From the NCBI GenBank assembly GCA_900319235.1, contig ONNR01000018.1, positions 1 through 64,000 of the forward strand: a stretch of 64,000 bases of DNA. Reading direction: 5' to 3'. The notes beneath the pieces are model-generated. The model worked only from the letters and a program-made list of their open reading frames with translations. It had not been told where the DNA came from and searched no databases. Positions within the stretch are counted from its first letter, which is position 1. Every line of letters starts with the position of its first letter. This DNA is from an uncultured Prevotellaceae bacterium (GTDB lineage: Bacteria; Bacteroidota; Bacteroidia; Bacteroidales; UBA3663). The position numbers and the translations under genes were made by a program. Below, one piece after another: positions 3,938-62,422 of the stretch.

Positions 3938-3970
3938 GAGACTATAATTAAAGATATTTGGTGGCTTGAG

Positions 3971-4024
3971 GATCTAGAGATTCTAGAAGATCTAGACTAT
4001 CTAGAATATCTAGAGAATCTAGAG
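3971..4024. repeat. 9-bp CTAGA array between GH115 and uxuB
   Basis: Six back-to-back 9-bp units share an NNTCTAGAN core (GATCTAGAG, ATTCTAGAA, GATCTAGAC and so on). Because TCTAGA is itself palindromic, the whole array reads alike on both strands. It sits in the 94-bp spacer inside a presumed operon. Confidence 0.88.
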
Positions 4025-4031
4025 AAAAAAA

Positions 4032-6767
4032 CTACTTCTCCCTTGGGCTCTCGACCCCCTTCAGGTGCGAGGGGTCGTAGCCGCCGAGGTCGATGACGAC
4101 CTTTTCGACCACAAGACCCGGGTCGAGCGGACGGATGGTGAGGTGGTGGAGGTCGGCGGGCGAGATGGGCAGCTCGGTGACCGTCTCGATAATGCGGGTG
4201 GCGGCGATGGCGTACATCTCGTTGGTGTTCTCCTCGATGTAGCGGCTGTTGTAGTTGACTTCAACGGCCTCGCCATTGTCGAGCTGAAGCGTATAGCGAT
4301 GGCCTTCCTTGCGCAGGAAGGGCAAGGTGCTGTTGGTGATGATGTGCACCTTGACGCTTGTTCCCTCGAAGCCTTCGGCACGGAAGGCATAGTCGAGCGA
4401 AGCGCCTTCGCAGGCTGCATTGTGCGGCAGCAGGGCAACGCCCGAAAGGGTGCGGCCCAAGGTGGGCAGAATGGTCCACGTGCCGTCGGCACTGGGACTC
4501 GCCTCGAAGTAATGTTCGGCCTCGATGCTCACCTGTCCGTTGTAGGCCTTGAAGACGTAGTGCGGGGCTTCGGGCTTGGCTGGCTTGTCGGCATCGACAC
4601 GAACGACCTTCGGGCATACCTGCACATCGGGCTGCTGCCATGATCTGTAGCCGATATGGGTCTGATCCATCAGATGGTTCCACTTGCCTCCTCCGATGCT
4701 GTGATATTCACGCGTCAGCTCGTCGTCACGGGCGAAGCATTGCTCCACAAGGTCGGCATAACAGTTGGCACGCGGGTCACCGAGGGCAGCGAGATAGAGG
4801 TTCTGCGCCTGGGCATAGTACATCTCGTAGAGGTTGGCCATCGACTGGATGGGGAACAGGATGAGCTGATGATAGGCGTCGCGTGCCGGGGCGGGCACCT
4901 TCTGCCACAGGCGATAGGCATCGGCCTCGAGCGCCTTGTACTGTAGCATCGCCTGCTCCCACTCTCCGCTCTGCAGGTTGTAGGTGCGCCAATTCAAGAG
5001 CTCGGGGGTGACGCGGCTGTTGTAGCGGAGGTAGGTCTCCAAGAGACGAGCCGCTTCGCGGGAAAGGTTTGAGGGGTTTGAGGGGTTCGAAAGGTTCTCA
5101 CCCAGCATCTGAGCGCAGAAGTCGAGGGCGTGCTGGTGGACGCTGCTGATGTCGGCGTAGTCATCGGGACGCCAGGCCATCTTGAGGAAAAGGTCGATGG
5201 GATGCTCCATGGGCTTGAGGTCGCCCACATTGAGAATCCAGAGGTCGTCGATGCCATATTCGTAGCACAGGCGCATCTGTTCCCACAAGTGGTTGGTGGT
5301 GGTGACGTTGGCCCACTTGGTGTTGCGCGGACCACCCACGTAATCGACGTGGTAGTACATGCCCCATCCGCCCTTGCGGTTCATGAGTGCCTCCTTGGTG
5401 CGCGTAGCTGAAACGTTGGCTTCGGGTACACGACGAATGTCGCCCCAGTTGTCGTCGCAAAGCATGATAAGCACATCGTCGGGCACATCGAGGCCCAGGT
5501 CATAGAGGTGCTGCACCTCCTTGTAGAGTGCCCACATCTGAGGCGTGCGGTCGGCCTTCTTGCCTGTCACCTCGGCGATGATGCGGCGCTGGTTGCTGAT
5601 GATGTTCTCGAGGAGCTTCTTGTTGTAGTCGTCAAGGTTCTGGGTGAGGTGGTCGAAGCCCTCCTTGCCTCCCAGGCCCGTGTCGCCATCGCCTCGCATA
5701 CCGATGGTAATCAGGTCCTCGGTGCCACGGGCGCGTTCGATGCCTTCGCGGAAGAACTGGTCGATGACGGGCTTGTTGACTGCATAATCCCAACGAGCCT
5801 CGGCAGGCGCCTCATCGTCATTACGGGCACCTGCTTCCTTCATCTTTGCGCGCTTGTAGCGCACCCATTCCTGATGGTTGCGAGCCATGGGTTCATGATG
5901 GGAAGTGCCCATAATGATACCCATCTCGTCTGCCAATGGTCCGTTGAGCGGATCGTCGAAATAGAAGGCATTGCCCCACATCGCGGGCCACAAATAGTTG
6001 CCTTTCAAGCGGAGCAGCAGTTCGAAGACGTGTTCGTAGAAAAGGTGGTTGAAGCCGCGGGCATAGGTGTTGCCCCAAGGATCGACGGGAAGGTTCTCGC
6101 ACTGGCTGTCGGGAAACTTCTCCTTCACCCAACCCGAAAGACAGGGAGCCTCGTCGTTGAGAAAGATGCCACGATAGCGAACTATGGGTTCCCCATCGGT
6201 GTAAATACCTGGAAGGAGGAAGATGCTATCGCGCTTAACAATGGGCATATCGGCCCACCATGCCCATGGCGAAACGCCCAACTGACGGCTCAGTTCGTAG
6301 ATTCCATATTCGGTGCCTCGCTTGTCGCTGCCTGCGATGACGAGCATCCGGCCAGTCTTGCCTTTGTACAAGACACCAGCATCAAGCAATGTGATGATAT
6401 ACTTCTCGCGCTTGTCTTTCAGTTCCTTGGCATCAATGGCCTTGCGCTTGACCAATTGCTGAATGCAACTGCTCTTCTCAAGCGAACCGACAAGGAGAAT
6501 CGGCGCATCGCCTTCGGCCTGGGTCAGAATCCTGGCAACACTTTGACCGGTCACCTGTTCGAAGTCCTTGCTTAGGTTATCGAGTGCACGACGGATGCCG
6601 GGATAGTCGTTCTGGTCGAAGACAATCTGGACCGGGCCCTGCTGTGTAGGATAGATGCAGAGGGCATTGTCCTGGTCTTGGAAAGTGACAAACTGATCGG
6701 CCGCCTGCATCGCAGTTGTCAAAGACAGTGCTAAAAGAAGCACTATGGATGTTAGAATCTGTTTCAT
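4032..6767 (-). CDS. GH115 xylan alpha-1,2-glucuronidase
   Basis: A 911-residue exported enzyme with an N-terminal signal peptide ending near AMQA/AD (residues 1-23). It carries the GH115 hallmark blocks GIYELSRQLGVSPWAWWAD, LLLRLKGNYLWPAMWGN, GTSHHEPM and GMRGDGDTGLGG in the family order. GH115 enzymes remove (4-O-methyl)glucuronic acid from glucuronoxylan. Length is normal for the family (about 830-970 residues). A TATCTTTG promoter lies at 6809-6816 on the minus strand. One oddity is an in-frame 36-bp insert at 5063-5098 that encodes a SNPSNPSNLS run and is built of the same 9-bp units seen between genes elsewhere. It falls in a helix-linker region and should be tolerated. Family call is secure. 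Confidence 0.95.
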   Translation of the reverse strand: MKQILTSIVLLLALSLTTAMQAADQFVTFQDQDNALCIYPTQQGPVQIVFDQNDYPGIRRALDNLSKDFEQVTGQSVARILTQAEGDAPILLVGSLEKSSCIQQLVKRKAIDAKELKDKREKYIITLLDAGVLYKGKTGRMLVIAGSDKRGTEYGIYELSRQLGVSPWAWWADMPIVKRDSIFLLPGIYTDGEPIVRYRGIFLNDEAPCLSGWVKEKFPDSQCENLPVDPWGNTYARGFNHLFYEHVFELLLRLKGNYLWPAMWGNAFYFDDPLNGPLADEMGIIMGTSHHEPMARNHQEWVRYKRAKMKEAGARNDDEAPAEARWDYAVNKPVIDQFFREGIERARGTEDLITIGMRGDGDTGLGGKEGFDHLTQNLDDYNKKLLENIISNQRRIIAEVTGKKADRTPQMWALYKEVQHLYDLGLDVPDDVLIMLCDDNWGDIRRVPEANVSATRTKEALMNRKGGWGMYYHVDYVGGPRNTKWANVTTTNHLWEQMRLCYEYGIDDLWILNVGDLKPMEHPIDLFLKMAWRPDDYADISSVHQHALDFCAQMLGENLSNPSNPSNLSREAARLLETYLRYNSRVTPELLNWRTYNLQSGEWEQAMLQYKALEADAYRLWQKVPAPARDAYHQLILFPIQSMANLYEMYYAQAQNLYLAALGDPRANCYADLVEQCFARDDELTREYHSIGGGKWNHLMDQTHIGYRSWQQPDVQVCPKVVRVDADKPAKPEAPHYVFKAYNGQVSIEAEHYFEASPSADGTWTILPTLGRTLSGVALLPHNAACEGASLDYAFRAEGFEGTSVKVHIITNSTLPFLRKEGHRYTLQLDNGEAVEVNYNSRYIEENTNEMYAIAATRIIETVTELPISPADLHHLTIRPLDPGLVVEKVVIDLGGYDPSHLKGVESPREK
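5063..5098. repeat. In-frame 9-bp array inside the GH115 gene
   Basis: Four 9-bp units (AAAGGTTTG, AGGGGTTTG, AGGGGTTCG, AAAGGTTCT) follow one another within the coding sequence. They encode a Ser-Asn-Pro/Leu triplet repeat. The same unit type forms the intergenic array at 51260-51336. Confidence 0.85.
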
Positions 6768-6983: not shown

Positions 6984-9065
6984 ATGGCACACGAACATCA
7001 TCACCATCATCATCATGATGAAGACGAAGAGGCATGCAAGAGCTGCATGCATCAGCACGAACATCATCACCATCACCACGACGAACATGATGAAGAAGGG
7101 CATCATCACCACGACCACGATGAAGAAGGACATCATCACCACCACCATCACGACGATGGAATGAGGGAATCGGTCATCAAGATTGCAGTGGCCGTCGTTC
7201 TGCTCCTCATCGCAGTATATATCGAGCACAACTTCGCATTGCCCACGTGGCAACTGCTGCTCATCTATCTTGTCCCCTACCTCGTGGTAGGACTTGACAC
7301 CATCAAGGAAGCCATCGAAGGCGTGATGGAAGGCGAACCATTTGACGAAAACTTCCTCATGACCATCGCCACACTGGGCGCTCTCTGCATCGGATTCCTC
7401 CCAGGTGCCGAGACACAGTTCCCCGAAGCCGTCTTCGTAATGCTCTTCTTCCAGATCGGCGAACTCTTTGAAGGCTATGCCGAAGGAAAGAGCCGCGAAT
7501 CGATTTCGCACCTGATGGACATCCGTCCCGATACGGCCAACGTGGAACGTGAGGGCAAGGTGGTGGCCATTGCTCCCGAAGAGGTAGCCGTGGGCGAAAC
7601 CATCGTCATCCGTCCGGGCGAAAAGGTGCCCCTCGATGGAGAGATCATCGAAGGGCAGACCAGCCTCAACACCGTGGCATTGACGGGCGAAAGCGCTCCA
7701 CGCGATGTAGTGGAGGGCGACGAGGTCATCTCGGGTTGCATCAACATTTCGGGACTCATCCGCGTGAGGACCAGCAAGACTTTCGGCGAATCGACCGTTT
7801 CGAAGATTATCCAACTGGTCGAAAGCGCATCGGACCACAAGTCGAAGAGCGAAGCCTTCATCACGCGTTTTGCCCGCATCTACACACCTATCGTGGTCTT
7901 TGCAGCCATCGCCCTGGCTCTGCTCCCACCCCTGTTCTGCACAGGCGGATTCATGGCGAACTTCCCCACCTGGCTCTACCGCGGATTGATGTTCCTCGTA
8001 GTAAGTTGTCCCTGCGCCCTGGTCATCAGCGTTCCACTCACCTTCTTTGGTGGCATCGGTGGCGCCTCACGCAATGGCATCCTCATCAAAGGCGCCAACT
8101 ACATCGACCAACTGGCGAAGATCAATACTGTCGTATTCGACAAGACCGGCACCCTCACCGAAGGAGTATTTGCCGTCACTGCCGTGCATCCCGACAAATA
8201 CGACGAAGAACATCTGCTGCACCTGGCTGCACACGTTGAACACTACTCCACCCACCCCATCGCACAGGCGCTGCGCGACGCCTATCCGGAAGCCGATCAC
8301 GACGGATGCAGCCTGGAAGAGGTCGAGGAAATTGCCGGACATGGCATCAAGGCCAAGGTCAATGGTCGCAAGGTATGCGTGGGCAACAACAAGATGATGC
8401 AGGCCCTCGGCATCGGGGAACACACCTGCGAACTGGTGGGCACCATCATCCACATCGCCATCGACGGCATCTATGCCGGTCACATCGTCATCAACGACCG
8501 CGTGAAAGCCGATGCCAAGGAGGCCATCGACCAACTACACCAAGCGGGTGTCAGCAAGGCTGTGATGTTGACGGGCGACCGACAGGAGGTGGCCGAAGAT
8601 GTTGCCAAGGCATTGGGCCTCGACGAAGTGCATGCCGAACTGCTGCCGACCGACAAGGTTGCGCTCTTCGACAAACTCGTACAGGAAGCCAAGGGTCCAA
8701 ACAACGAAAAAGACCAAGCACAGGGCCTGGCCTTTGTGGGCGACGGCATCAACGATGCGCCGGTACTGGCACGCGCAGACGTGGGTATCGCCATGGGTGG
8801 ACTGGGCAGCGATGCTGCCATCGAGGCTGCCGACGTGGTGCTGATGGACGACAAACCTTCGAAGGTTGCCCTGGCTATCAGGATTGCACGCCGCACCATT
8901 GGCATCGCCAATCAGAACGTGATCTTCGCCATCGGGGTGAAGGTGCTGGTGCTCCTGCTTGCCGCCTTCGGTCTGGCTACAATGTGGATGGCCGTCTTCG
9001 CCGATGTCGGTGTCACCGTCCTGGCGGTGCTCAATGCGATGAGAGCACTCAAGGTGAAAGAATAG
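6984..9065 (+). CDS. P1B-type heavy-metal ATPase (Zn/Cd exporter type) with a His-rich N-terminus
   Basis: A 693-residue P-type ATPase that pumps divalent metal out of the cytoplasm, ZntA/CadA-like. Visible motifs are the CPC metal-site motif (SCPCALVIS, near 341-349), TGES in the actuator domain, the phosphorylation loop DKTGTLTEG (near 386), the HP pair (STHPIAQAL, near 424) and GDGINDAP (near 585). The first ~58 residues hold some 30 histidines mixed with Asp/Glu and one Cys-x-x-Cys, replacing the usual HMA ferredoxin-like domain. It has its own promoter and a strong terminator, and it interrupts the xylan locus on the opposite strand. CPC favours Zn/Cd/Pb over Cu, though CPC also occurs in Cu pumps. 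Confidence 0.93.
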   Translation: MAHEHHHHHHHDEDEEACKSCMHQHEHHHHHHDEHDEEGHHHHDHDEEGHHHHHHHDDGMRESVIKIAVAVVLLLIAVYIEHNFALPTWQLLLIYLVPYLVVGLDTIKEAIEGVMEGEPFDENFLMTIATLGALCIGFLPGAETQFPEAVFVMLFFQIGELFEGYAEGKSRESISHLMDIRPDTANVEREGKVVAIAPEEVAVGETIVIRPGEKVPLDGEIIEGQTSLNTVALTGESAPRDVVEGDEVISGCINISGLIRVRTSKTFGESTVSKIIQLVESASDHKSKSEAFITRFARIYTPIVVFAAIALALLPPLFCTGGFMANFPTWLYRGLMFLVVSCPCALVISVPLTFFGGIGGASRNGILIKGANYIDQLAKINTVVFDKTGTLTEGVFAVTAVHPDKYDEEHLLHLAAHVEHYSTHPIAQALRDAYPEADHDGCSLEEVEEIAGHGIKAKVNGRKVCVGNNKMMQALGIGEHTCELVGTIIHIAIDGIYAGHIVINDRVKADAKEAIDQLHQAGVSKAVMLTGDRQEVAEDVAKALGLDEVHAELLPTDKVALFDKLVQEAKGPNNEKDQAQGLAFVGDGINDAPVLARADVGIAMGGLGSDAAIEAADVVLMDDKPSKVALAIRIARRTIGIANQNVIFAIGVKVLVLLLAAFGLATMWMAVFADVGVTVLAVLNAMRALKVKE

Positions 9066-9070
9066 ACAAC

Positions 9071-9110
9071 AGCGCGACATGAAATGAAACTCATGCCGCG
9101 CTAGTTTTAT
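9071..9110 (+). terminator. Terminator of the P-type ATPase gene
   Basis: AGCGCGACATGA (9071-9082) pairs with TCATGCCGCGCT (9091-9102) with one mismatch, and AGTTTTAT follows. It begins 5 bp after the stop codon. Confidence 0.78.
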
Positions 9111-9113
9111 AGA

Positions 9114-9158
9114 AGATCTAGATAATCTAGAAAATCTAGAGAGTCTAGACAGCCTAGA
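9114..9158. repeat. 9-bp CTAGA array between convergent genes
   Basis: Five 9-bp units (AGATCTAGA, TAATCTAGA, AAATCTAGA, GAGTCTAGA, CAGCCTAGA) lie between the ATPase terminator and the GH10 stop codon. The core matches the arrays at 3971 and 52120. Confidence 0.88.
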
Positions 9159-9160
9159 TA

Positions 9161-10282
9161 TTACATAAGTCCCTTCTTCTTCATCCTTTCAACGAGGAAG
9201 GGCTTCATCTGACCCTTGCGGTCGAACCAGAGCGGATAATCGGAGCGACCCTTGATGGGCCAATCGTTCTTCCAGGAGTCGGCATCGGTGACGCCCCAAG
9301 CGGTGACGCGACGCACGTTCTTGGCATACTTATCGACAATGCCGAGGAAGGTGGTCATACGCTCGTTCCAAACAGCAGATACGCTGTCGGGCAAGGCTTC
9401 GGCATAAGGATTGAGCTCGGCACGATACTCCTCGGTGTCGCTCACGTTAGCGCCAAAGTTTACAGAAGGCAATGCACTCATATCGACTTCAGTGAACTGC
9501 ACATCCACACCGGCTCCGATGAATGCCTTGATGCTGGCCTCAAATTCCTCCCAAGAAGGATGATCCATGCCCATGTGGCTTTGCAAGCCTACAGCATCGA
9601 TGCGGATGCCACGTGCCTTGAGCTTCTTGACAAGTTCGACCACGCCTGCACGCTTACCGGGCTGAGCCATCGAATAGTCGTTGTAGTAGAGTTCAGCATC
9701 GGGGTCAGCCTCCATAGCACACTGGAATGCCCAGGGGATGAACTCCTCGCCAAGAATCTGATAGAAAAGTGAAGGACGATAACTTCCATCGTCGAGGATA
9801 GCCTCATTGACAACATCATAGCCCGTGATGCGACCCTTATAGCGAGTCATGACGGTGGTGATATGATCCTTCATGCGCTGCTTCAACACTTCTGGCTTCA
9901 CCTGCTTGCCCTTGTCATCGACAAAGAACCAGGGAGCGCACTGGCTGTGCCAGATGAGGCAATGGCCGATGATCTGCATATTGTTGTCCTCGCCAAACTT
10001 CACAAAGCGGTCGGCATCGTCCCAGAAATAGGTGTTCTCCTCGGGATGAATCTCCTCGCACTTCATGCAGTTTTCGGCCACGATGCTGTTGAAGTGCTGC
10101 TTGATGATGGCAACACCCTCGGCATCCTTCTGGTTACTCTGGTTCACATTGATGGCCACGCCGACGGTATAGTCGGGGAAGGCATCGGTAAGCTTAGGTT
10201 CTACAACCTCAGCGGTCTTTGGCTTTGAGCCACAGGCTGCAAGAAGCAGGGCGCTGACTGACAGGAAAAGGAATTTTTTCAT
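9161..10282 (-). CDS. GH10 endo-1,4-beta-xylanase, lipoprotein
   Basis: A 373-residue retaining xylanase. The signal peptide ends in a lipobox (LLAAC, Cys17). The catalytic acid/base is Glu160 in YDVVNEAI, the nucleophile is Glu265 in VQFTEVD, and the substrate-binding GHCLIWHSQ block is at 106-114. It is a single-domain GH10 with no carbohydrate-binding module. The residues after Cys17 are not acidic, unlike the SusD lipoproteins here, so a periplasmic-facing anchor is possible. It is the last gene of a leftward GH43, GPH transporter, GH35-like, GH10 series, the same activities as the P. bryantii xyn cluster. Role: cutting the xylan backbone to oligosaccharides for import. Confidence 0.95.
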
Positions 10283-10306
10283 TGTTTAATTATTTGGGGT
10301 TTAGGA

Positions 10307-10387
10307 ATCGGAGTAATCGGATTTTTCGGAGGGTTCGGAATAATCGGAGGAATCAGAGTAATCGGAATACTCCGAGTACTCAGAGTC
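10307..10387. repeat. 9-bp ATCGGAGTA-type array in the xylan operon
   Basis: Nine consecutive 9-bp units with core NTCGGANNN (ATCGGAGTA, ATCGGATTT, TTCGGAGGG, TTCGGAATA and so on) fill most of the 103-bp gap between two operon genes. The last unit overlaps the stop codon of the GH35-like gene (10386-10388). Confidence 0.88.
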
Positions 10388-16781: not shown

Positions 16782-16921
16782 AAAGGGATACTAAGGGATA
16801 TTTGGGGACTTTAAGGGATATTAAGGGACGATACATTCGCCTGTAGAAAAAGAGGCAAAAAAAGTATCGTCCCTTAATATCCCTTAATATCCCTTTTTTC
16901 TCTTAAAATCCCTTAGTTTTT
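16782..16921. repeat. Long palindromic element, copy A
   Basis: Arms built of AAGGGATATT units face their inverted copies. The inner 24 bp (16811-16834 and 16864-16887) are perfectly complementary, with a 29-nt loop that carries ATTCGCCTGTAGA. The outer units extend the pairing imperfectly to about 140 bp, and T-rich tracts follow. Copies B (28354) and C (33884) share the unit and the loop core. It lies downstream of the esterase gene, upstream of the SusC promoter. Confidence 0.88.
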
Positions 16922-25971: not shown

Positions 25972-26012
25972 ACTATAGTGACTATAGTTATTATAGTTAC
26001 TATAGCCACTAC
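25972..26012. repeat. 9-bp ACTATAGTN array
   Basis: Units ACTATAGTG, ACTATAGTT, ATTATAGTT, ACTATAGCC and a decayed fifth fill the gap between two leftward genes. The core CTATAG is palindromic. Confidence 0.82.
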
Positions 26013-28353: not shown

Positions 28354-28492
28354 TAAGGGACATTAAAGGATATTAAGGGATATTAAGGGATTCTAAGGGA
28401 CGTATGTTTCTTGGGCCCCCATTCTCTACAGGCGAAGGTAACGTCCCTAAATATCCCTTAATATCCCCAATATCCCTTAATATCCCTAAAAA
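28354..28492. repeat. Long palindromic element, copy B (inverted orientation)
   Basis: Left-arm AAGGGATATT units end in AAGGGACGT (28395-28403), and the right arm begins ACGTCCCTAAATATCCC (28441). About 20 of the inner 23 bp pair. The 37-nt loop read on the minus strand contains ACCTTCGCCTGTAGAGAA, matching the loop of copy A, so this copy is inserted in reverse. It lies between convergent aguA and gapA. Confidence 0.87.
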
Positions 28493-32810: not shown

Positions 32811-33884
32811 ATGAAAATCGGTTTCGACGCCAAACGCTATTACCATAATCACACAGGCATCGGCAATTACAGCCGTGCCATCATCAAGGGATTGCAAGCG
32901 CTCTATCCCGACGATGACTATCTCCTCTATGACGAGAAGACCTTCTCGCGCACCTTCCGACTGGGACGAAAGGCAGCACGCGACGGCTGTGAACTCTTCC
33001 ATGGCCTCTCCAACGAACTTCCTGCCGACATTCTGAAGAGTGGCGTGCGTTCCATCGTCACCCTGCACGACACGGCATGGCGCACCTACCCGCAGATGTA
33101 CCATTGGATCGATCGCCAAATCTACGACTACAAATATGGTCGCAGTTGCCACATCGCCAACCATGTGCTTGCCATCTCCGAAAGTACCAAGAAGGATGTG
33201 ATGCGCTTCTACGACATTCCCGAAGTCAAGATTTCGGTCATCTATCAGCCCGTCCAGGAACTTTTCTACAAACCACTCTCCAGCGACGAAGCCGACCGGC
33301 TCATTGCCGATGCGGTTTCATCGGGAATGCTTTCGGCTGCCCTTCCCAAAGACTTCATTCTCAACGTGGGCAGCATCAACAGCCGCAAGAACCTACTGGG
33401 ACTCGTCCAGGCCCTCGAGCTCATTCCTGCCGAGCAGCGTCCCCCGCTTCTCGTTGTCGGCAACGGCCACGAATATAAGCGCGACGTAATGAATTACATC
33501 GCAAAGCATCATCTCGAGCGGTATGTCCGTATCGAGACTGGTGTCAGCGACAACAAGGTGTTGCAAGCCCTCTATTCCAAAGCACTCCTGATGGCCTATC
33601 CTTCCCATTATGAAGGTTTCGGACTGCCCGTGGTCGAAGCAGCCCTCCAAGGCTGTCCCATTCTGACCAGCAATGTCAGTTCTCTCCCCGAAGCAGCAGG
33701 ACCAGGTGCCCTACTCTGCGACCCCGCCGATATCGAATCCATCCACAAATATCTCACCGAACTGCTCGACGACAGCAGCATGGCACAACGTCTGGCCGAA
33801 GTAGCCGAGGAATATGCCCGCTGCCATTTCGACCCGCGCACACTCACCGAGCAGCTGCATGAGCTTTACCTAAAAATCTGTTAG
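32811..33884 (+). CDS. GT4-family glycosyltransferase
   Basis: A 357-residue GT-B fold glycosyltransferase. Near the N-terminus GFDAKRYYHNHTGIGNYSR is the family's Gly-rich acceptor loop, and the C-terminal donor site has HYEGFGLPVVEAALQGCP with the E-x7-E motif, followed by SSLPEAAG. No membrane helix. It is probably involved in lipopolysaccharide, capsule or exopolysaccharide synthesis; donor and acceptor cannot be told. Starts one base after the YitT stop codon, so translation is coupled. Confidence 0.9.
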   Translation: MKIGFDAKRYYHNHTGIGNYSRAIIKGLQALYPDDDYLLYDEKTFSRTFRLGRKAARDGCELFHGLSNELPADILKSGVRSIVTLHDTAWRTYPQMYHWIDRQIYDYKYGRSCHIANHVLAISESTKKDVMRFYDIPEVKISVIYQPVQELFYKPLSSDEADRLIADAVSSGMLSAALPKDFILNVGSINSRKNLLGLVQALELIPAEQRPPLLVVGNGHEYKRDVMNYIAKHHLERYVRIETGVSDNKVLQALYSKALLMAYPSHYEGFGLPVVEAALQGCPILTSNVSSLPEAAGPGALLCDPADIESIHKYLTELLDDSSMAQRLAEVAEEYARCHFDPRTLTEQLHELYLKIC

Positions 33885-34026
33885 GGATTTTATAGATATT
33901 AAGGGATTCTAAGGGATATTAAGGGACATCACCTTCGCCTTTCAAGACTTTTTGGCCAAGAAAAACAAACGTCCCTTAATATCCCTAAATATCCCTTAGA
34001 ATCCCCAAGAATCCCTTAGAATCCTA
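33884..34026. repeat. Long palindromic element, copy C
   Basis: TATTAAGGGATTCTAAGG units lead into AAGGGAC (33921-33927), and the right arm opens GTCCCTTAATATCCCT (33971-33986). The inner 16 bp pair perfectly, and further units pair in shifted register. The loop holds CACCTTCGCCTTTCAAGA and GGCCAAGAAA, matching copies A and B. It sits between the convergent GT4 gene and the broken sulfatase; its first bases touch the GT4 stop codon. Confidence 0.85.
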
Positions 34027-38189: not shown

Positions 38190-39149
38190 ATGGCAAAAAA
38201 GCAAGACAATATCTTCTACCGGGTGCTCTACTACATCATCCTCGTGCCAGGCTATGCCGTTTCGCTGCTCCCGATGTGGTGGCATTACTTCTGGTCCGAT
38301 GTGCTCTACCTTTTAATTTATCGCGTAGTGCGTTATCGTCGAAAGGTGGTGCGCCGCAACCTGACGGACAGTTTTCCCGACAAGACAGAAGGCGAACTCC
38401 GCAAGGTGGAGAGGGATTTCTATCACTACTTCTGCGACCTGCTTGTCGAAGCCATCAAGTTCATCTCCATCAGCCGTGAAGAGATGCGTCGTCGCATGAA
38501 CTTCGAAGACATCGAACCTGTCCTCGACTCCTGTCGTCGCGGCAAGAACTGCGCTGTCTATCTTGGCCACTACGGCAACTGGGAGTGGATCAGTTCCCTG
38601 CAACTTTGGATCGACCCGAAGATAGGTCAATGCACACAACTTTACCATCCGCTTGAAAACCCCGCGATGGACCGACTTATGGGATATATCCGACAGCGTA
38701 TGGGTGACATCAACATCCCCGTCGAGCAGTCGGTGCGTCACTTTGTCCGCTATCGTCAGCAGGGCAGGCCTGTCCTCGTAGGCTTTATCGCCGACCAGGT
38801 GCCCCATTGGCGCAACATACACTATTGGACGAACTTCCTTAACCATCCCAAGACGCCCATCTTCACGGGTTCCGAACGACTCACACGCCAGTTCGACATG
38901 GATGCCTACTACCTCCACGTCACCCGACCTCGTCGCGGATATTGGAACGTGCGTTTCGTGCCTATGGCGCGCGACTGCAAGCAGACGCAGGAATTCGAGA
39001 TTACCGAACTCTACACGCGTCTCCTTGAAAAGAACATCCTCGAAGCGCCCCAATACTGGCTGTGGACCCACAACCGCTGGAAGCGTACTTACGAGGAATG
39101 GCTCGTCAAGAAGGAATCCTGGGAAAAGAAGTCCACCCAATCTGAATAA
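38190..39149 (+). CDS. Lipid A acyltransferase (LpxL/HtrB family)
   Basis: A 319-residue inner-membrane enzyme with one N-terminal anchor (VLYYIILVPGYAVSLLPMWW) and the catalytic H-x4-E motif in LGHYGNWEW near residue 127. It also has VRRNLTDSFPDKTE and the RPRRGYWNVRF/YTRLLE... blocks of the lysophospholipid/Kdo2-lipid IVA acyltransferase family. It adds a secondary acyl chain to lipid A. The final residues QSE and the stop codon are encoded by the first unit of a 9-bp repeat array. Confidence 0.9.
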   Translation: MAKKQDNIFYRVLYYIILVPGYAVSLLPMWWHYFWSDVLYLLIYRVVRYRRKVVRRNLTDSFPDKTEGELRKVERDFYHYFCDLLVEAIKFISISREEMRRRMNFEDIEPVLDSCRRGKNCAVYLGHYGNWEWISSLQLWIDPKIGQCTQLYHPLENPAMDRLMGYIRQRMGDINIPVEQSVRHFVRYRQQGRPVLVGFIADQVPHWRNIHYWTNFLNHPKTPIFTGSERLTRQFDMDAYYLHVTRPRRGYWNVRFVPMARDCKQTQEFEITELYTRLLEKNILEAPQYWLWTHNRWKRTYEEWLVKKESWEKKSTQSE

Positions 39150-39223
39150 TCCGAGAACTCTGAGTACTCCGAATAATCCGAAACTCTGAGGACTCCGAAT
39201 AGTCCGAGTACTCCGAGAACTCC
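39141..39223. repeat. 9-bp TCCGAGTAC-type array that supplies the LpxL stop codon
   Basis: Nine units (TCTGAATAA, TCCGAGAAC, TCTGAGTAC, TCCGAATAA, an 8-bp TCCGAAAC, and so on), all 9 bp except one. The TAA of the first unit is the stop of the acyltransferase gene. It ends 13 bp before the helicase ATG. Confidence 0.88.
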
Positions 39224-39235
39224 AACGAAGACATT

Positions 39236-41951: not shown

Positions 41952-41985
41952 AATAACAATTAATAATTAACAAATAACAATTGGA
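41944..41985. repeat. 10-bp AATAACAATT repeat before clpA
   Basis: AATAACAATT, AATAATTAAC and AAATAACAATT follow each other in the 56-bp clpS-clpA gap. A like set (TTGTTAATTA units) precedes the zinc-ribbon gene at 48836. Confidence 0.6.
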
Positions 41986-44419: not shown

Positions 44420-44815
44420 AAGCATTATGTCGCCCGTCAGAGTGCTATTTCCCGTAGAAGAAAGCATCGCGTCGGCCGTCAGAGTACTATTTCCCGTAGA
44501 AGAAAGCATCACGTCGGCCGTCAGAGTACTATCTCCCGTAGAAGAAAGCATCGCGTCGGCCGTCAGAGTGCTATTTCCCGTAGAAGCAAGCATCATGTCG
44601 GCCGTCAAAGTGCTATTTTCTTTAGAAGAAAGCATCGTGTCAGCTGTCAGAGTACTATCTCCCGTAGAAGAAAGTATTATGTCGGCCGTCAGAGTGTTAT
44701 TTCCTGTAGAAGAAAGCATCCTGTCGGCCGTCAGAGTGCTATTTCCCGTAATAGGAAGCATTATGTCGGCCGTCAGAGTGACATTTCCGTTGGAGCAAGC
44801 CTCGTGTCGCGCAAC
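44420..44815. repeat. 42-bp tandem array, nine units
   Basis: Units begin with AAGCAT at 44420, 44462, 44504, 44546, 44588, 44630 (as AAGCAT), 44672 (AAGTAT), 44714 and 44756, exactly 42 bp apart, with a partial tenth near 44797. Each carries GTCGGCCGTCAGAGT and CCCGTAGAAGAAAGC, and differences between units are single-base. Frames on both strands stay open (143 and 119 codons) only because the unit lacks stops. The palindromic cores CGGCCG and AGTACT are present but no long hairpin arm, unlike the arrays at 121 and 44860. Confidence 0.9.
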
Positions 44816-44859
44816 TTAATGCTCTATGACGTTGACGGTACTAGTTGCGGACAAATAGT

Positions 44860-45150
44860 ACCATCTCACCACAATATTGCACTACTTGTGTACACGTGGA
44901 ACAATCTCCGCCGCAATATTGTACTGCCCGTGTACACTTGATACCATCTCACGGCAAGATTGCACTGCTTGTGTACACTTGGTACAATCTCGCCGCAATA
45001 TTGTACTGCCTGTGTACACTTGATACAATCTCACGGCAAGATTGCACTACTTGTGCGCAATTGATACAATCCTCTTCGCAAGATTGTACTACTTGTGTAC
45101 ACTTAGTACCATCTCACCGCAAGATTGCACCATTTGCGAACAGATAGTAC
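44860..45150. repeat. 41-bp tandem hairpin array, seven units
   Basis: Units start at 44860, 44901, 44943, 44984, 45025, 45066 and 45108, mostly 41 bp and twice 42 bp where one base is inserted. Each holds an inverted pair such as GTACAAT...ATTGTAC or CAATCT...AGATTG around a CGCCG-rich loop, plus the palindrome GTGTACAC. The 41-bp step shifts the reading frame in each unit, which argues strongly against a protein. Confidence 0.9.
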
Positions 45151-48800: not shown

Positions 48801-48877
48801 CGACGGGTATATGGCTTTTTTGTGTCCCAAAACAAAATTGTTAATTATTAATTGTTAATTGTTATTTTTATATTATT

Positions 48878-49675: not shown

Positions 49676-51259
49676 ATGCCTACGAACAACAACTTTAGTC
49701 CAAACGGAGGTGCGCCGGCCAACCGTCGCAATACCCGTACACAATCGCCCCAGCAACCTGCTTTGGGCAAGGTACAGCCTCAAGCCACCGAGGTGGAAGA
49801 GGCTGTGCTGGGTGCCCTTATGCTCGAAAAGGACGCCTACTCGGTAATCTCCGACCTGCTGAAGCCCGAATCTTTCTACGACCACAAGCACCAGCTGATC
49901 TTTGCTGCCATCCAGGAACTGGCATTCAACCAGGAACCTATCGACATGCTGACGGTGACCAACCGTCTGCAACGCAATGGTGTGATCGAAGAGGTGGGCG
50001 GTGCCTACTACATCGCCACTCTGACGGGCAAGGTGGGCTCGGCGGCCAACATCGAGTATCATGCGAAAATCATCGCCCAGAAGTCGCTGGCACGCCAACT
50101 GATCAACTATGCAGGCAAACTCGAGTCGGCAGCATTCGACGAGACGACCGACATCGACGCCTTGATGCAAAGTGCCGAAGGAGAGCTGTTCCAACTCTCG
50201 CAGCACAACATCAAGAAGGACGTCATCCAGATTGACCCTGTGATTCAGGATGCGCTGAAGAAGATCGAGCAGGCTTCGAATCGCGACGACGGCCTATCGG
50301 GTCTGCCTTCTGGCTTCCACGACCTTGACAAGATCACCTCCGGTTGGCAGAACACCGACCTGGTGATTATCGCAGCACGCCCTGCCATGGGCAAGACGGC
50401 GCTGGTGCTTTCGATGGTGAAGAACATGGCGGTGAACTACAACATTCCCGTCGGCATGTTCAGCTTGGAGATGAGTAACCTTCAGCTCGTGAACCGATTG
50501 CTGCAGAACGTCTGCGAAATCTCGGGCGAGAAGGTGAAGAGCGGTAGGCTGACCAGCGATGAGTGGACCAAACTGACCACTCGAATCACCCAACTGCAAG
50601 GTGCCCCCATTTATGTAGACGACACCCCAGGTCTGTCGGTATTCGAACTTCGCACGAAAGCCCGCCGACTGGTGCGCGAACATGGCGTGAAGATCATTAT
50701 GATCGACTACCTGCAGCTGATGACGGCCGCTGGTATGCAATTCGGTTCGCGCGAACAGGAGGTTTCGACCATTTCGCGTTCGCTGAAAGGATTGGCCAAG
50801 GAACTCGACATCCCGATCATCGCACTGTCGCAGTTGAACCGTGGTGTCGAGACTCGCCAAGGCGAGGGAAAGCGTCCCCAGTTGGCCGACCTTCGCGAGT
50901 CGGGTGCCATCGAACAGGATGCCGATATGGTGTGCTTTATCCATCGTCCCGAGTACTACAAGATCTTCGAGGATGAGAAAGGCAACGACCTGCGCGGCCT
51001 GGCCGAAATCATCATCGCCAAGCATCGTAGCGGTTCAGTAGGCGACGTTCGCCTGAGGTTCCGTGGCGAGTTCGTTCGTTTCCAGAACCTTGACGAGGAC
51101 TCGAGCCTCACCCCCACCCTCACCCCTTGGAGCGGTGACCACGAACTGACGTCTCGTATGGACAACGAACCACGTCCCGATATGTCACAACAGCCTAATG
51201 GTTTCGAAGCTCCTTCGGGCAGCTTCGGCGCACCCGAACCAGGGGAAGCTCCATTTTAA
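49676..51259 (+). CDS. dnaB: Replicative DNA helicase DnaB
   Basis: A 527-residue hexameric replicative helicase. The N-terminal domain begins around residue 38 (EVEEAVLGALMLEKDAY) after a disordered Asn/Gln tail. The RecA-like domain has Walker A ARPAMGKTA near 233, Walker B MIDYLQLM and SQLNRGVE/RPQLADLRESGAIEQDADM; no intein is present. The C-terminus is long, Pro/Gly/Ser-rich and includes a SLTPTLTPW stretch from a CCCTCACCC-like repeat. A 9-bp array starts right at the stop codon. Confidence 0.97.
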   Translation: MPTNNNFSPNGGAPANRRNTRTQSPQQPALGKVQPQATEVEEAVLGALMLEKDAYSVISDLLKPESFYDHKHQLIFAAIQELAFNQEPIDMLTVTNRLQRNGVIEEVGGAYYIATLTGKVGSAANIEYHAKIIAQKSLARQLINYAGKLESAAFDETTDIDALMQSAEGELFQLSQHNIKKDVIQIDPVIQDALKKIEQASNRDDGLSGLPSGFHDLDKITSGWQNTDLVIIAARPAMGKTALVLSMVKNMAVNYNIPVGMFSLEMSNLQLVNRLLQNVCEISGEKVKSGRLTSDEWTKLTTRITQLQGAPIYVDDTPGLSVFELRTKARRLVREHGVKIIMIDYLQLMTAAGMQFGSREQEVSTISRSLKGLAKELDIPIIALSQLNRGVETRQGEGKRPQLADLRESGAIEQDADMVCFIHRPEYYKIFEDEKGNDLRGLAEIIIAKHRSGSVGDVRLRFRGEFVRFQNLDEDSSLTPTLTPWSGDHELTSRMDNEPRPDMSQQPNGFEAPSGSFGAPEPGEAPF

Positions 51260-51402
51260 AGGTTTAGAAAGGTTAAGAGGGGTTTTGAAAGGTTCGAAAG
51301 GTTAAGAGGAGTTTAGAAAGATTCGAAGGGTTCGTTTTTTTCGGAATACCGGAATCCCGTTATAACGTAATTTCGATATAACTTAATACCGAATCGCGTG
51401 AA
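51260..51402. repeat. Two successive 9-10 bp arrays after dnaB
   Basis: First, 51260-51336: AGGTTTAGAA, AGGTTAAGAGG, GGTTTTGAA, AGGTTCGAA and similar units. Then, after a short T-run, 51341-51402: TCGGAATAC, CGGAATCCC, CGTTATAAC, resembling the array at 38101. The first unit type also occurs inside the GH115 gene and at the 3' end of the TPR gene (56319). Confidence 0.8.
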
Positions 51403-52119: not shown

Positions 52120-52155
52120 ATCTAGTACATCTAGAATATCTAGTACATCTAGATA
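52120..52155. repeat. 9-bp ATCTAGTAC array
   Basis: Four exact 9-bp units (ATCTAGTAC, ATCTAGAAT, ATCTAGTAC, ATCTAGATA) lie between the convergent DUF4919 gene and the degP terminator. Confidence 0.85.
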
Positions 52156-52159
52156 AAAT

Positions 52160-60805: not shown

Positions 60806-62422
60806 TTATTCGAATGCACCCATCTTGAGCATGCTTACCTCCTGCTGGGTGAGGTGACGCCAGCGGCCACGTGGCAGGTTCTTCTTGGTGAGTCCTGCGA
60901 AATAAACGCGGTCGAGCTTCACGACACGATAGCCGAGGTGCTCGAAGATACGACGCACGATACGGTTCTTGCCCGAGTGGATCTCGATACCAACCTGGTT
61001 CTTGTCCTCTTCGTTGGCATAAGCAATGGCATCAGCATGGATGGGACCATCGTCGAGTTCGATGCCTGCTGCAATGCGAGCGAGATCGGTCTCAGCCACA
61101 TCCTTGTCAAGCCATACGTGATAGATCTTCTTCTTGATGTACTTGGGATGGGTGAGTTTCGAAGCGAGGTCACCATCGTTGGTGAGGAGCAGCACACCAG
61201 TGGTGTTGCGGTCGAGACGACCAACAGGATAGATGCGCTCGCGGCTTGCATTGCGCACCAGATCCATAACGGTCTGACGGCCCTGTGGATCATCGCTGGT
61301 GGTGACGGTATCCTTCGGCTTGTTGAGGAGTACATAGACCTTGCGCTCGAGGCTTACGGGCTGGTCGTTGAAGGTCACCTGATCCTTGCGGGTCACCTTG
61401 GTGCCGAGTTCGGTAACAACCTCACCGTTTACCTTGACCAAACCAGCTGCGATGTGCTCGTCGGCTTCACGACGCGAGCAAACGCCTGCATTGGCCAAAT
61501 ACTTGTTGAGACGCAGTTCCTCATTCGGATCGACGATTGCCTCGGTGTATTCCACCGGACGATGTGGGTTGTAGCCCTGATGCTTGCGATTGGGTTTCTG
61601 CTTCTGAGGACGTCCGAAACCGCCCTGCTGGGGACGACCGTAGCCACCCTGCTGGGGACGACCATAACCTCCCTGCTGGGGACGGCCATAACCGCCCTGC
61701 TGGGGACGACCGTAGCCACCCTGCTGGGGACGGCCATAACCACCCTGCTGACGACCGTAACCGCCCTGCGGACGGCCGTAACCACCCTGCTGAGGACGCT
61801 GATAGCCGCGTGGCTGGTAACCGCCCTGTGGCTGATAGTTCTGAACATATCCACCTTCCTGTGGCTGCTGATTCTCCTGAGCCTTGCCTTCCTGAGGCTC
61901 GCCCTGTGGATGCTGATAGCCCTGATTATCGTTGTAGCGCTGGTAGCCGTTATTGGGACGCTGTGGACGCTGGTAGCTCTGATAACCGCCCTGCTCGCCA
62001 TCCTGGTTGTAACGACGATAGCCGCCCTGGGGACGCTGTGGACGCTGATAGCTGCCCTGGTAGCCGCCGCCCTGTGGACGCTGGTAGCCACCACCCTGCT
62101 GATAGCCGCCTTCGCCTTCCTGTGGGCGCTGATAGCCTTCGCCATCCTGCATTGGACGCTGGTAACCGCCACCACGCTGATAGCCGCCACCACGCTGGTA
62201 GCCGCCACCACGCTGATAACCGCCGCCACGACCATATCCGCTATAGTCGTTGGCGCCACCGCGCTGATAAGAGTTACGTGACTGTGGATCATAGGCGGCT
62301 GCGTTACCGAAGCGGCTCTCGCCGATTCTGGGACGACGCTTTGGCGCCTGCTGTGATGCACCTTCTGGTGCTGCATTACCCTCCTGTGGGGTATTTGCCT
62401 GTGGGTTCTGATTTTCTTCCAT
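60806..62422 (-). CDS. RluB/RsuA-family pseudouridine synthase with a long disordered N-terminus
   Basis: A 538-residue protein. Residues ~295-355 are an S4 RNA-binding domain (LRLNKYLANAGVCSRREADE), and the rest is the RsuA/RluB catalytic domain with catalytic Asp near 403 in VGRLDRNTTGVLLL. It isomerises a uridine in ribosomal RNA. The first ~290 residues are unusual: a low-complexity tail of GGYQR, GYQRPQ and GGYGRPQQ repeats, at DNA level a 24-bp tandem repeat near 61610-61790. I choose ATG 62422; the open frame begins two codons earlier at a TTG. purB ends 2 bp upstream. Confidence 0.92.
   Translation of the reverse strand: MEENQNPQANTPQEGNAAPEGASQQAPKRRPRIGESRFGNAAAYDPQSRNSYQRGGANDYSGYGRGGGYQRGGGYQRGGGYQRGGGYQRPMQDGEGYQRPQEGEGGYQQGGGYQRPQGGGYQGSYQRPQRPQGGYRRYNQDGEQGGYQSYQRPQRPNNGYQRYNDNQGYQHPQGEPQEGKAQENQQPQEGGYVQNYQPQGGYQPRGYQRPQQGGYGRPQGGYGRQQGGYGRPQQGGYGRPQQGGYGRPQQGGYGRPQQGGYGRPQQGGFGRPQKQKPNRKHQGYNPHRPVEYTEAIVDPNEELRLNKYLANAGVCSRREADEHIAAGLVKVNGEVVTELGTKVTRKDQVTFNDQPVSLERKVYVLLNKPKDTVTTSDDPQGRQTVMDLVRNASRERIYPVGRLDRNTTGVLLLTNDGDLASKLTHPKYIKKKIYHVWLDKDVAETDLARIAAGIELDDGPIHADAIAYANEEDKNQVGIEIHSGKNRIVRRIFEHLGYRVVKLDRVYFAGLTKKNLPRGRWRHLTQQEVSMLKMGAFE
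61610..61790. repeat. 24-bp coding tandem repeat (GGYGRPQQ)
   Basis: About seven nearly identical 24-bp units encode GGYGRPQQ inside the N-terminal tail of the pseudouridine synthase. The unit, a multiple of three, lets copy number change without frameshift. A second, looser set of GGGYQR codons lies at 62160-62230. Confidence 0.85.

Follow-up and report, generated by a model that had tools for sequence, protein, structure and literature searches.

RESULTS

An in-frame array in a GH115 gene

The short tandem repeat inside the GH115 alpha-glucuronidase gene described here is best explained overall as one site of a GARRGGTTY repeat family dispersed in one clade of host-associated Bacteroidales, a reading whose probability we put at about 0.78. 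At the level of sequence comparison, the evidence establishes dispersal within one clade, high turnover, change by whole codons in genes, and a bias of reading frame. The window is the whole stretch of DNA that was analyzed, 64,000 nucleotides long, and corresponds to positions 1 to 64000 of contig C40 in a 3.72-Mb draft genome (G000; 46 contigs, 86.5% complete). The array and its host gene are these:

5062 to 5097, plus strand: GARRGGTTY array of four units, antisense to the GH115 gene; in the gene's direction it reads TCR-AAC-CYY, that is, Ser-Asn-Pro/Leu
4032 to 6767, minus strand: GH115 alpha-glucuronidase gene, 911 amino acids, host of the array; Pfam PF15979 and PF17829; closest solved structure 4c90

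The open reading frame was assigned to GH115 by Pfam, with PF15979 (E value, 1.1e-125) and PF17829 both present. The four units are perfect (GAAAGGTTT GAGGGGTTT GAGGGGTTC GAAAGGTTC), and the protein segment encoded by the array region is ...GENLSNPSNPSNLSREAA... An earlier note, made from the sequence of the window, had reported four units in frame within the coding sequence as an SNP/SNL repeat; the array and its (S-N-P/L)n reading were as described, and its position, given as 5063 to 5098, was one base off. In an AlphaFold2 model of the protein (mean pLDDT, 79.8), the array is predicted to sit in a loop between helices 541 to 554 and 567 to 582, and its two ten-residue blocks have pLDDT values of 84 and 72. 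The array probably has no specific catalytic role.

The earlier note had also predicted that GH115 homologues would lack the insert or would vary in steps of three residues. We retrieved 80 GH115 loci, 79 of them with a readable open reading frame, and measured lengths around the array against the protein encoded here. The array segment was exactly 9 residues shorter in 75 of the 79 homologues, as predicted; among the rest, two were shorter by 2 residues, one was longer by 1, and one, from the sister species G003, was longer by 15. Likewise, 4c90, the best-aligned solved structure, lacks 9 residues at the array position. The motif SN[PL]SN[PL] occurred only in the GH115 proteins of this species and G003 in the comparison of 79 homologues, so the conservation in distant genera that the note had named as evidence against its reading did not appear, and the 75 shorter homologues rule out a conserved GH115 feature. 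The 15 extra residues in G003 equal five further 9-bp units, and the rest of the two proteins is 90% identical. Because the homologues and 4c90 are 9 residues shorter and G003 is 15 residues longer, the aligned lengths put the insert at three codon triplets here and eight in G003 (+9 and +24 residues against the family norm). The array would most likely have entered the gene in an ancestor that this species and G003 have in common.

A dispersed family limited to one clade

We scanned genomes for runs of three GARRGGTTY units with at most one mismatch, using the reversed pattern as a control; three-unit matches overlap, so they outnumber arrays. This genome had 130 matches, G003 had 327, G004 had 151, G006 had 69, G007 had 214, and G011 had 70; the 9 other congeners and 45 further genomes of the order had none. 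The control pattern gave no match in any genome scanned. As in dispersed simple-sequence-repeat families of the heptamer type, one short tandem unit occupies many sites of one genome (130 matches versus 0). Separately, an array finder run on 704,617 bases returned 39 arrays, belonging to four 9-bp families, and on a Markov-shuffled copy it returned none. With zero matches to the control pattern and zero arrays in shuffled sequence, a chance origin was rejected. In a 16-row DnaB tree, two congeners having given no DnaB match, the six array-bearing species grouped together with 100/100 support.

The TCTAGANNN family gave 87 matches in this genome, 24 in G003, 46 in G004, 67 in G006, 55 in G007, and 21 in G011; beyond these six there were 2 in G010, 6 in G014, and 2 in G053, and none elsewhere. 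This genome also contains 9-bp TCYGARNAY, 9-bp TATAGTNAY, 7-bp TTAATTN, and 10-bp TAAGGGANNN families. The other 9-bp arrays of the window are listed here.

51254 to 51334, plus strand: degenerate GARRGGTTY array at the 3' end of dnaB (49676 to 51259), adjoining the dnaB stop at 51259
3968 to 4026, no strand assigned: TCTAGANNN 9-bp array, 5 bp past the GH115 stop codon; the G003 site has a TCYGAR-type array
9110 to 9161, no strand assigned: TCTAGANNN array in a convergent gap, beside the stop of a GH10 gene; the G003 site has two GARRGGTTY arrays
10304 to 10386, minus strand: TCYGARNAY array beside a stop codon in a co-directional gap
25972 to 26009, plus strand: TATAGTNAY array; G003 has no array
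39141 to 39229, plus strand: TCYGARNAY arrays that take up the space separating the genes for a lipid A acyltransferase and a UvrD-type helicase; G003 has no arrays
52120 to 52156, no strand assigned: TCTAGANNN-type array in a convergent gap; none detected at the G003 site

The array after dnaB, to which the earlier note had likened the GH115 array, is indeed of the same type; it is degenerate, with three perfect units and irregular steps of 9 and 10 bp.

The window holds further repeats of other kinds. Inverted pairs of 10-bp arrays (TAAGGGATAT ... ATATCCCTTA), about 40 to 50 bp apart, lie at 16783 to 16915, 28354 to 28487, and 33883 to 34024, and the second and third of these, not the first, are also found at the G003 sites; in the 705 kb sampled, the 10-bp family of these pairs has 16 arrays, all of them outside genes. 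Arrays of 7-bp TTAATTR units at 41954 to 41982 and 48836 to 48864 are shorter or missing in G003, and other Bacteroidales loci carry 7-bp arrays built from different units. Inverted pairs of genome-specific 7- or 10-bp arrays, 65 to 420 bp apart, occur in other Bacteroidales/Phocaeicola loci (L057, 10381 to 10883; L089, 5608 to 5987; L105, 8422 to 8560). Longer tandem repeats with periods of 41 to 42 and 83 bp lie at 121 to 487 and 44420 to 45130, and the block at 44420 to 44830 is itself a dispersed repeat, as dozens of other places in G003 match it in part. Two regions carry longer in-frame repeats: a 30-bp CAT/CAC-rich repeat at 7071 to 7147, in open reading frame 6984 to 9065, would encode a His/Asp/Glu-rich stretch, and 24-bp and 18-bp repeats at 61604 to 61798 and 62156 to 62230 give a Gly/Arg/Gln/Tyr-rich tail (RGGGYQ), the 18-bp repeat being present in G003 as well.

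Arrays in genes favor two reading frames

For placement relative to genes, we used 53 GARRGGTTY arrays of this genome, drawn from a fixed sample of about 695 kb plus 27 stretches picked for containing arrays; genes were called with our own hexamer-based script, not a standard annotator. Of these arrays, 31 lay within genes (27 called genes), which bears out the claim that arrays extend beyond spacers and sets the family apart from the largely intergenic heptamer-type families. The genes hit include those for RadA (TIGR00416), TilS (TIGR02432), a LacZ-type beta-galactosidase, GH2, GH3, GH31, and GH43 enzymes, and transporters. Only 1 of the 22 intergenic arrays lay between divergent genes.

The in-gene arrays were read as Ser-Asn-Pro/Leu in 15 cases and as Ser-Lys-Gly in 10; three other frames were used 3, 2, and 1 times, and one frame was never used. 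Two of the six frames hold 25 of the 31 arrays (binomial p, 9e-8, with arrays in the same gene not independent); of the six arrays in other frames, two are found right where a called gene begins and may reflect miscalled genes.

Unit length mattered as well. In the fixed stretches, 14 of 18 GARRGGTTY arrays were in genes, as were 2 of 8 TCYGARNAY, 0 of 8 TCTAGANNN, and 0 of 5 TATAGTNAY arrays; the 7-bp (0/13) and 10-bp (0/16) families were never in genes (Fisher p versus GARRGGTTY, 9e-9). The proposal that a unit of 9 bp, being three codons, lets arrays occupy genes is borne out by these counts, 0 of 29 for the 7- and 10-bp families against 14 of 18. Arrays found by Tandem Repeats Finder were in genes in 24 of 49 cases at period 9, 9 of 10 at period 12, 3 of 15 at period 7, 1 of 8 at period 8, 2 of 29 at period 10, and 0 of 6 at period 11; periods 9 and 12 together gave 33 of 59, and periods 7, 8, 10, and 11 gave 6 of 58.

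Array sites turn over between sister species

Of the 39 arrays in 704,617 bases of this genome, 19 had a counterpart site (18 distinct) in 420,012 bases of G003. A site was scored as empty when the array finder saw fewer than three units, and several such sites keep one, two, or decayed units. With flanks 80 to 93% identical, the G003 counterparts of the 18 sites (four 9-bp families) held an array of the same family in 3 cases and of a different family in 2, and 13 were empty; array sites are for the most part not shared by these related species.

Some length changes in genes amounted to whole units: besides the 15 residues gained by GH115 in G003, a PurM-like protein has 24 additional residues (SNLSNPS...) in G003 and is 95% identical elsewhere, and a polysaccharide-synthesis protein is 9 amino acids longer here than in G003. 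RadA has 14 extra residues in this species and is 96% identical elsewhere to that of G003. The PurM-like protein matches TIGR00878 below its cut-off (92 versus 236 bits), and we take the name to be apt partly from its resemblance to PurM in sequence. At genic sites of this species, the length difference was a multiple of 3 in 6 of 7 cases and a multiple of 9 in 3 of 7, the sole exception to the multiple of 3 being a 62-amino-acid open reading frame that is mostly array. At distinct intergenic sites, 3 of 11 differed by a multiple of 3 (one by zero), matching chance. With a 9-bp unit and 6 of 7 genic differences in multiples of 3, a change in unit number does not shift the frame as in phase variation. 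By comparison of the two species, we show that arrays appear, vanish, and change length, in genes by whole codons and often by whole units. The earlier note had suggested an active insertion or expansion mechanism. Expansion, together with contraction, is borne out by this comparison of species; active insertion stays a suggestion.

Genes and spacers appear to share one pool of units

We compared unit variants between genic and intergenic copies and between species. The genic and intergenic spectra correlated with r = 0.97 in this species and r = 0.06 in G003, where the sample was partly picked through array hits. Comparing the last base in fixed stretches avoids such picking: 73% of the 62 perfect units here end in C, against 30% of the 60 in G003. 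Genome-wide, exact triples with all units ending in C made up 56 of 73 here, 10 of 60 in G004, and 2 of 31 in G011 (the G004 and G011 totals were counted by eye). Because the genic and intergenic spectra of this species agree while species differ, genes and spacers appear to draw on one unit pool. A genome-wide CpG mutation bias behind the species-specific spectra was unsupported, as observed/expected CpG was 1.01 in both this species and G003.

Isolated single units were not in clear excess: there were 70 here, where the controls averaged 42 and 8 of the 60 were as high, and 27 against 25 in G003. Because of this, we see no sign of many fresh seeds, and the idea that excess isolated units act as seeds was unsupported.

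DISCUSSION

How the arrays may spread and be kept

We propose that GARRGGTTY arrays reach new sites through a putative copying or recombination step and that they may then gain and lose 9-bp units through slipped-strand synthesis or unequal recombination. As 9 bp is three codons, copies landing in genes need not break them, and purifying selection would then keep those copies whose reading gives a flexible, hydrophilic linker, Ser-Asn-Pro/Leu or Ser-Lys-Gly, within a surface loop. No mobilizing enzyme or mechanism for the arrays was found. A RAYT/Y1 transposase as the mover, as for REP/REPIN elements, was unsupported: the REP-type Y1 transposase PF01797 is present in G007 and G011 and absent from G000, G003, G004, and G006, four of the six array-bearing genomes, including the one studied here. 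As to the terminal inverted repeats and target-site duplications of a MITE, the sites inspected in the G003 comparison showed no shared flank outside the array. More speculatively, the clade may have an active, sequence-specific process that copies or writes 9-bp units of several palindromic-core families into new sites, homogenizes them genome-wide, and generates in-frame loop insertions in ordinary enzymes, including RadA, TilS, and the PurM-like protein.

Alternative explanations

The arrays could instead work at the 3' ends of genes, as RNA or DNA, in the role of terminators, mRNA-stability hairpins, or protein-binding sites, with in-gene copies as spill-over. This is possible, if unlikely. 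Palindromic cores of 6 bp (TTCGAA, TCTAGA, and CTATAG) are seen in three of the four 9-bp families, whereas only 13% of random units would be expected to have one; most of the TCTAGA, TCYGAR, and TATAGT arrays lie no more than about 20 bp from a stop codon, and 0 of 19 were between divergent genes (p = 0.012); and arrays fold better than shuffles, with mean z-scores from -1.7 to -3.8. However, the families were chosen after the data had been seen, the folding energies of GARRGGTTY arrays are weak (-0.11 to -0.18 kcal/mol per nucleotide), and the sister species has no array at 13 of 18 sites, unlike what is expected of a needed element. With z-scores that are moderate and families picked post hoc, we set aside strong hairpins as the main point.

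Local slippage, in which each array grows from a chance unit at its own site without dispersal, we consider quite unlikely. Some empty sites do keep one or two units: the PurM-like gene has 2 unit-like steps here versus 10 in G003, and C39:188571 has 4 units here versus about 1. Yet dozens of sites across six species show one and the same degenerate consensus, and near relatives are without it, about half of the empty GARRGGTTY-family sites are by our reading free of any unit, and TCTAGA and TATAGT arrays have been gained or lost with no visible seed.

A protein-level origin, with (SNP)n as a selected linker that arises gene by gene and the DNA repeat as a by-product, is very unlikely. S-N-P/L is a plausible flexible linker and is the reading of 15 of the 31 in-gene arrays, but 22 of the 53 sampled arrays are intergenic, which already largely refutes this origin; moreover, 10 in-gene arrays are read on the opposite strand as S-K-G, one unit spectrum is common to genic and intergenic copies (r = 0.97), and the family is confined to one clade when GH115, RadA, and TilS are not. 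An assembly artefact or contamination is highly improbable: all genomes are draft assemblies (63 to 90% complete within the genus), in which array lengths may be collapsed, but six separate genomes of one clade share the families in syntenic flanks that are 80 to 93% identical.

Relation to known repeats

Cyanobacterial STRR (short tandemly repeated repetitive) sequences are dispersed tandem short units that are lineage-specific, and Rickettsia palindromic elements are repeated palindromic DNA found in frame within unrelated genes. The latter are single, long elements, unlike the 9-bp units here. The likeness to STRR sequences lies in dispersed, lineage-specific tandem short units and the difference in their heptanucleotide units, Calothrix heptanucleotide repeats being mentioned in PMC4692102.

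The nearest kind is that of the Xanthomonas GGGAATC and Nostoc GGGGAYT heptamer arrays, which have a degenerate unit in 2 to 26 copies at 183 to 186 sites per genome, lie mostly in co-directional gaps near the upstream gene, are rare in divergent gaps, can occur as inverted pairs, are 7 to 11% intragenic, and at prominent-length sites are not common to related species (PMC4692102). The arrays here are like the Xanthomonas heptamers in dispersal, heterogeneous units, placement by the upstream gene, rarity in divergent gaps, and unshared sites. They are unlike the Xanthomonas and Nostoc arrays in having a 9-bp rather than a 7-bp unit (a 7-bp TTAATTN family of 13 arrays is separate), an intragenic share of 31 of 53 sampled arrays against 7 to 11% (PMC4692102), and several coexisting 9-bp families. 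Three or more Gs in successive units, as for a G-quadruplex, are not a property of GARRGGTTY, which guarantees only GG.

TAACTGA heptamers occur in Beggiatoaceae, cyanobacteria, and five Bacteroidetes, some inside open reading frames (PMC4679880), and are similarly clade-patchy, dispersed short tandem repeats. They differ in their 7-bp unit, in having stop codons in all three forward frames, in reaching the protein periphery, and in lying mostly upstream of start codons (PMC4679880). PARCELs, which encode 25-residue repeats (PMC2996958), are also repeated palindromic DNA in frame in unrelated genes, with the 9-bp unit here as the difference. The BrickBuilt minisatellite MITE of Porphyromonas gingivalis is likewise a tandem array dispersed in a Bacteroidales genome, and differs in its 23-bp unit, leader and tail inverted ends, and always intergenic position (PMC4596501).

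That units in multiples of three favor coding regions is not new, as PMC4679880 reports it as a finding of Mrazek et al. (2007). The arrays described here differ in their 9-bp period, in the coexistence of several families, in the large share that lies in genes, in a sharp bias of frame, and in the copies in core enzymes; we found no earlier report of such arrays in Bacteroidales in the open-access literature.

Several groups of bacteria have dispersed heptamer arrays. The presence of several 9-bp families beside 7- and 10-bp families in one genome provides an internal control, in which the frame-neutral period alone enters genes and uses two of the six frames. A large number of in-gene copies in enzymes of known structure, varying between sister species, would allow a direct test of how loop insertions arise, grow, and are tolerated. 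The arrays also call for caution, as differences in the length of such proteins may reflect a genome-wide repeat process and not selection on the protein.
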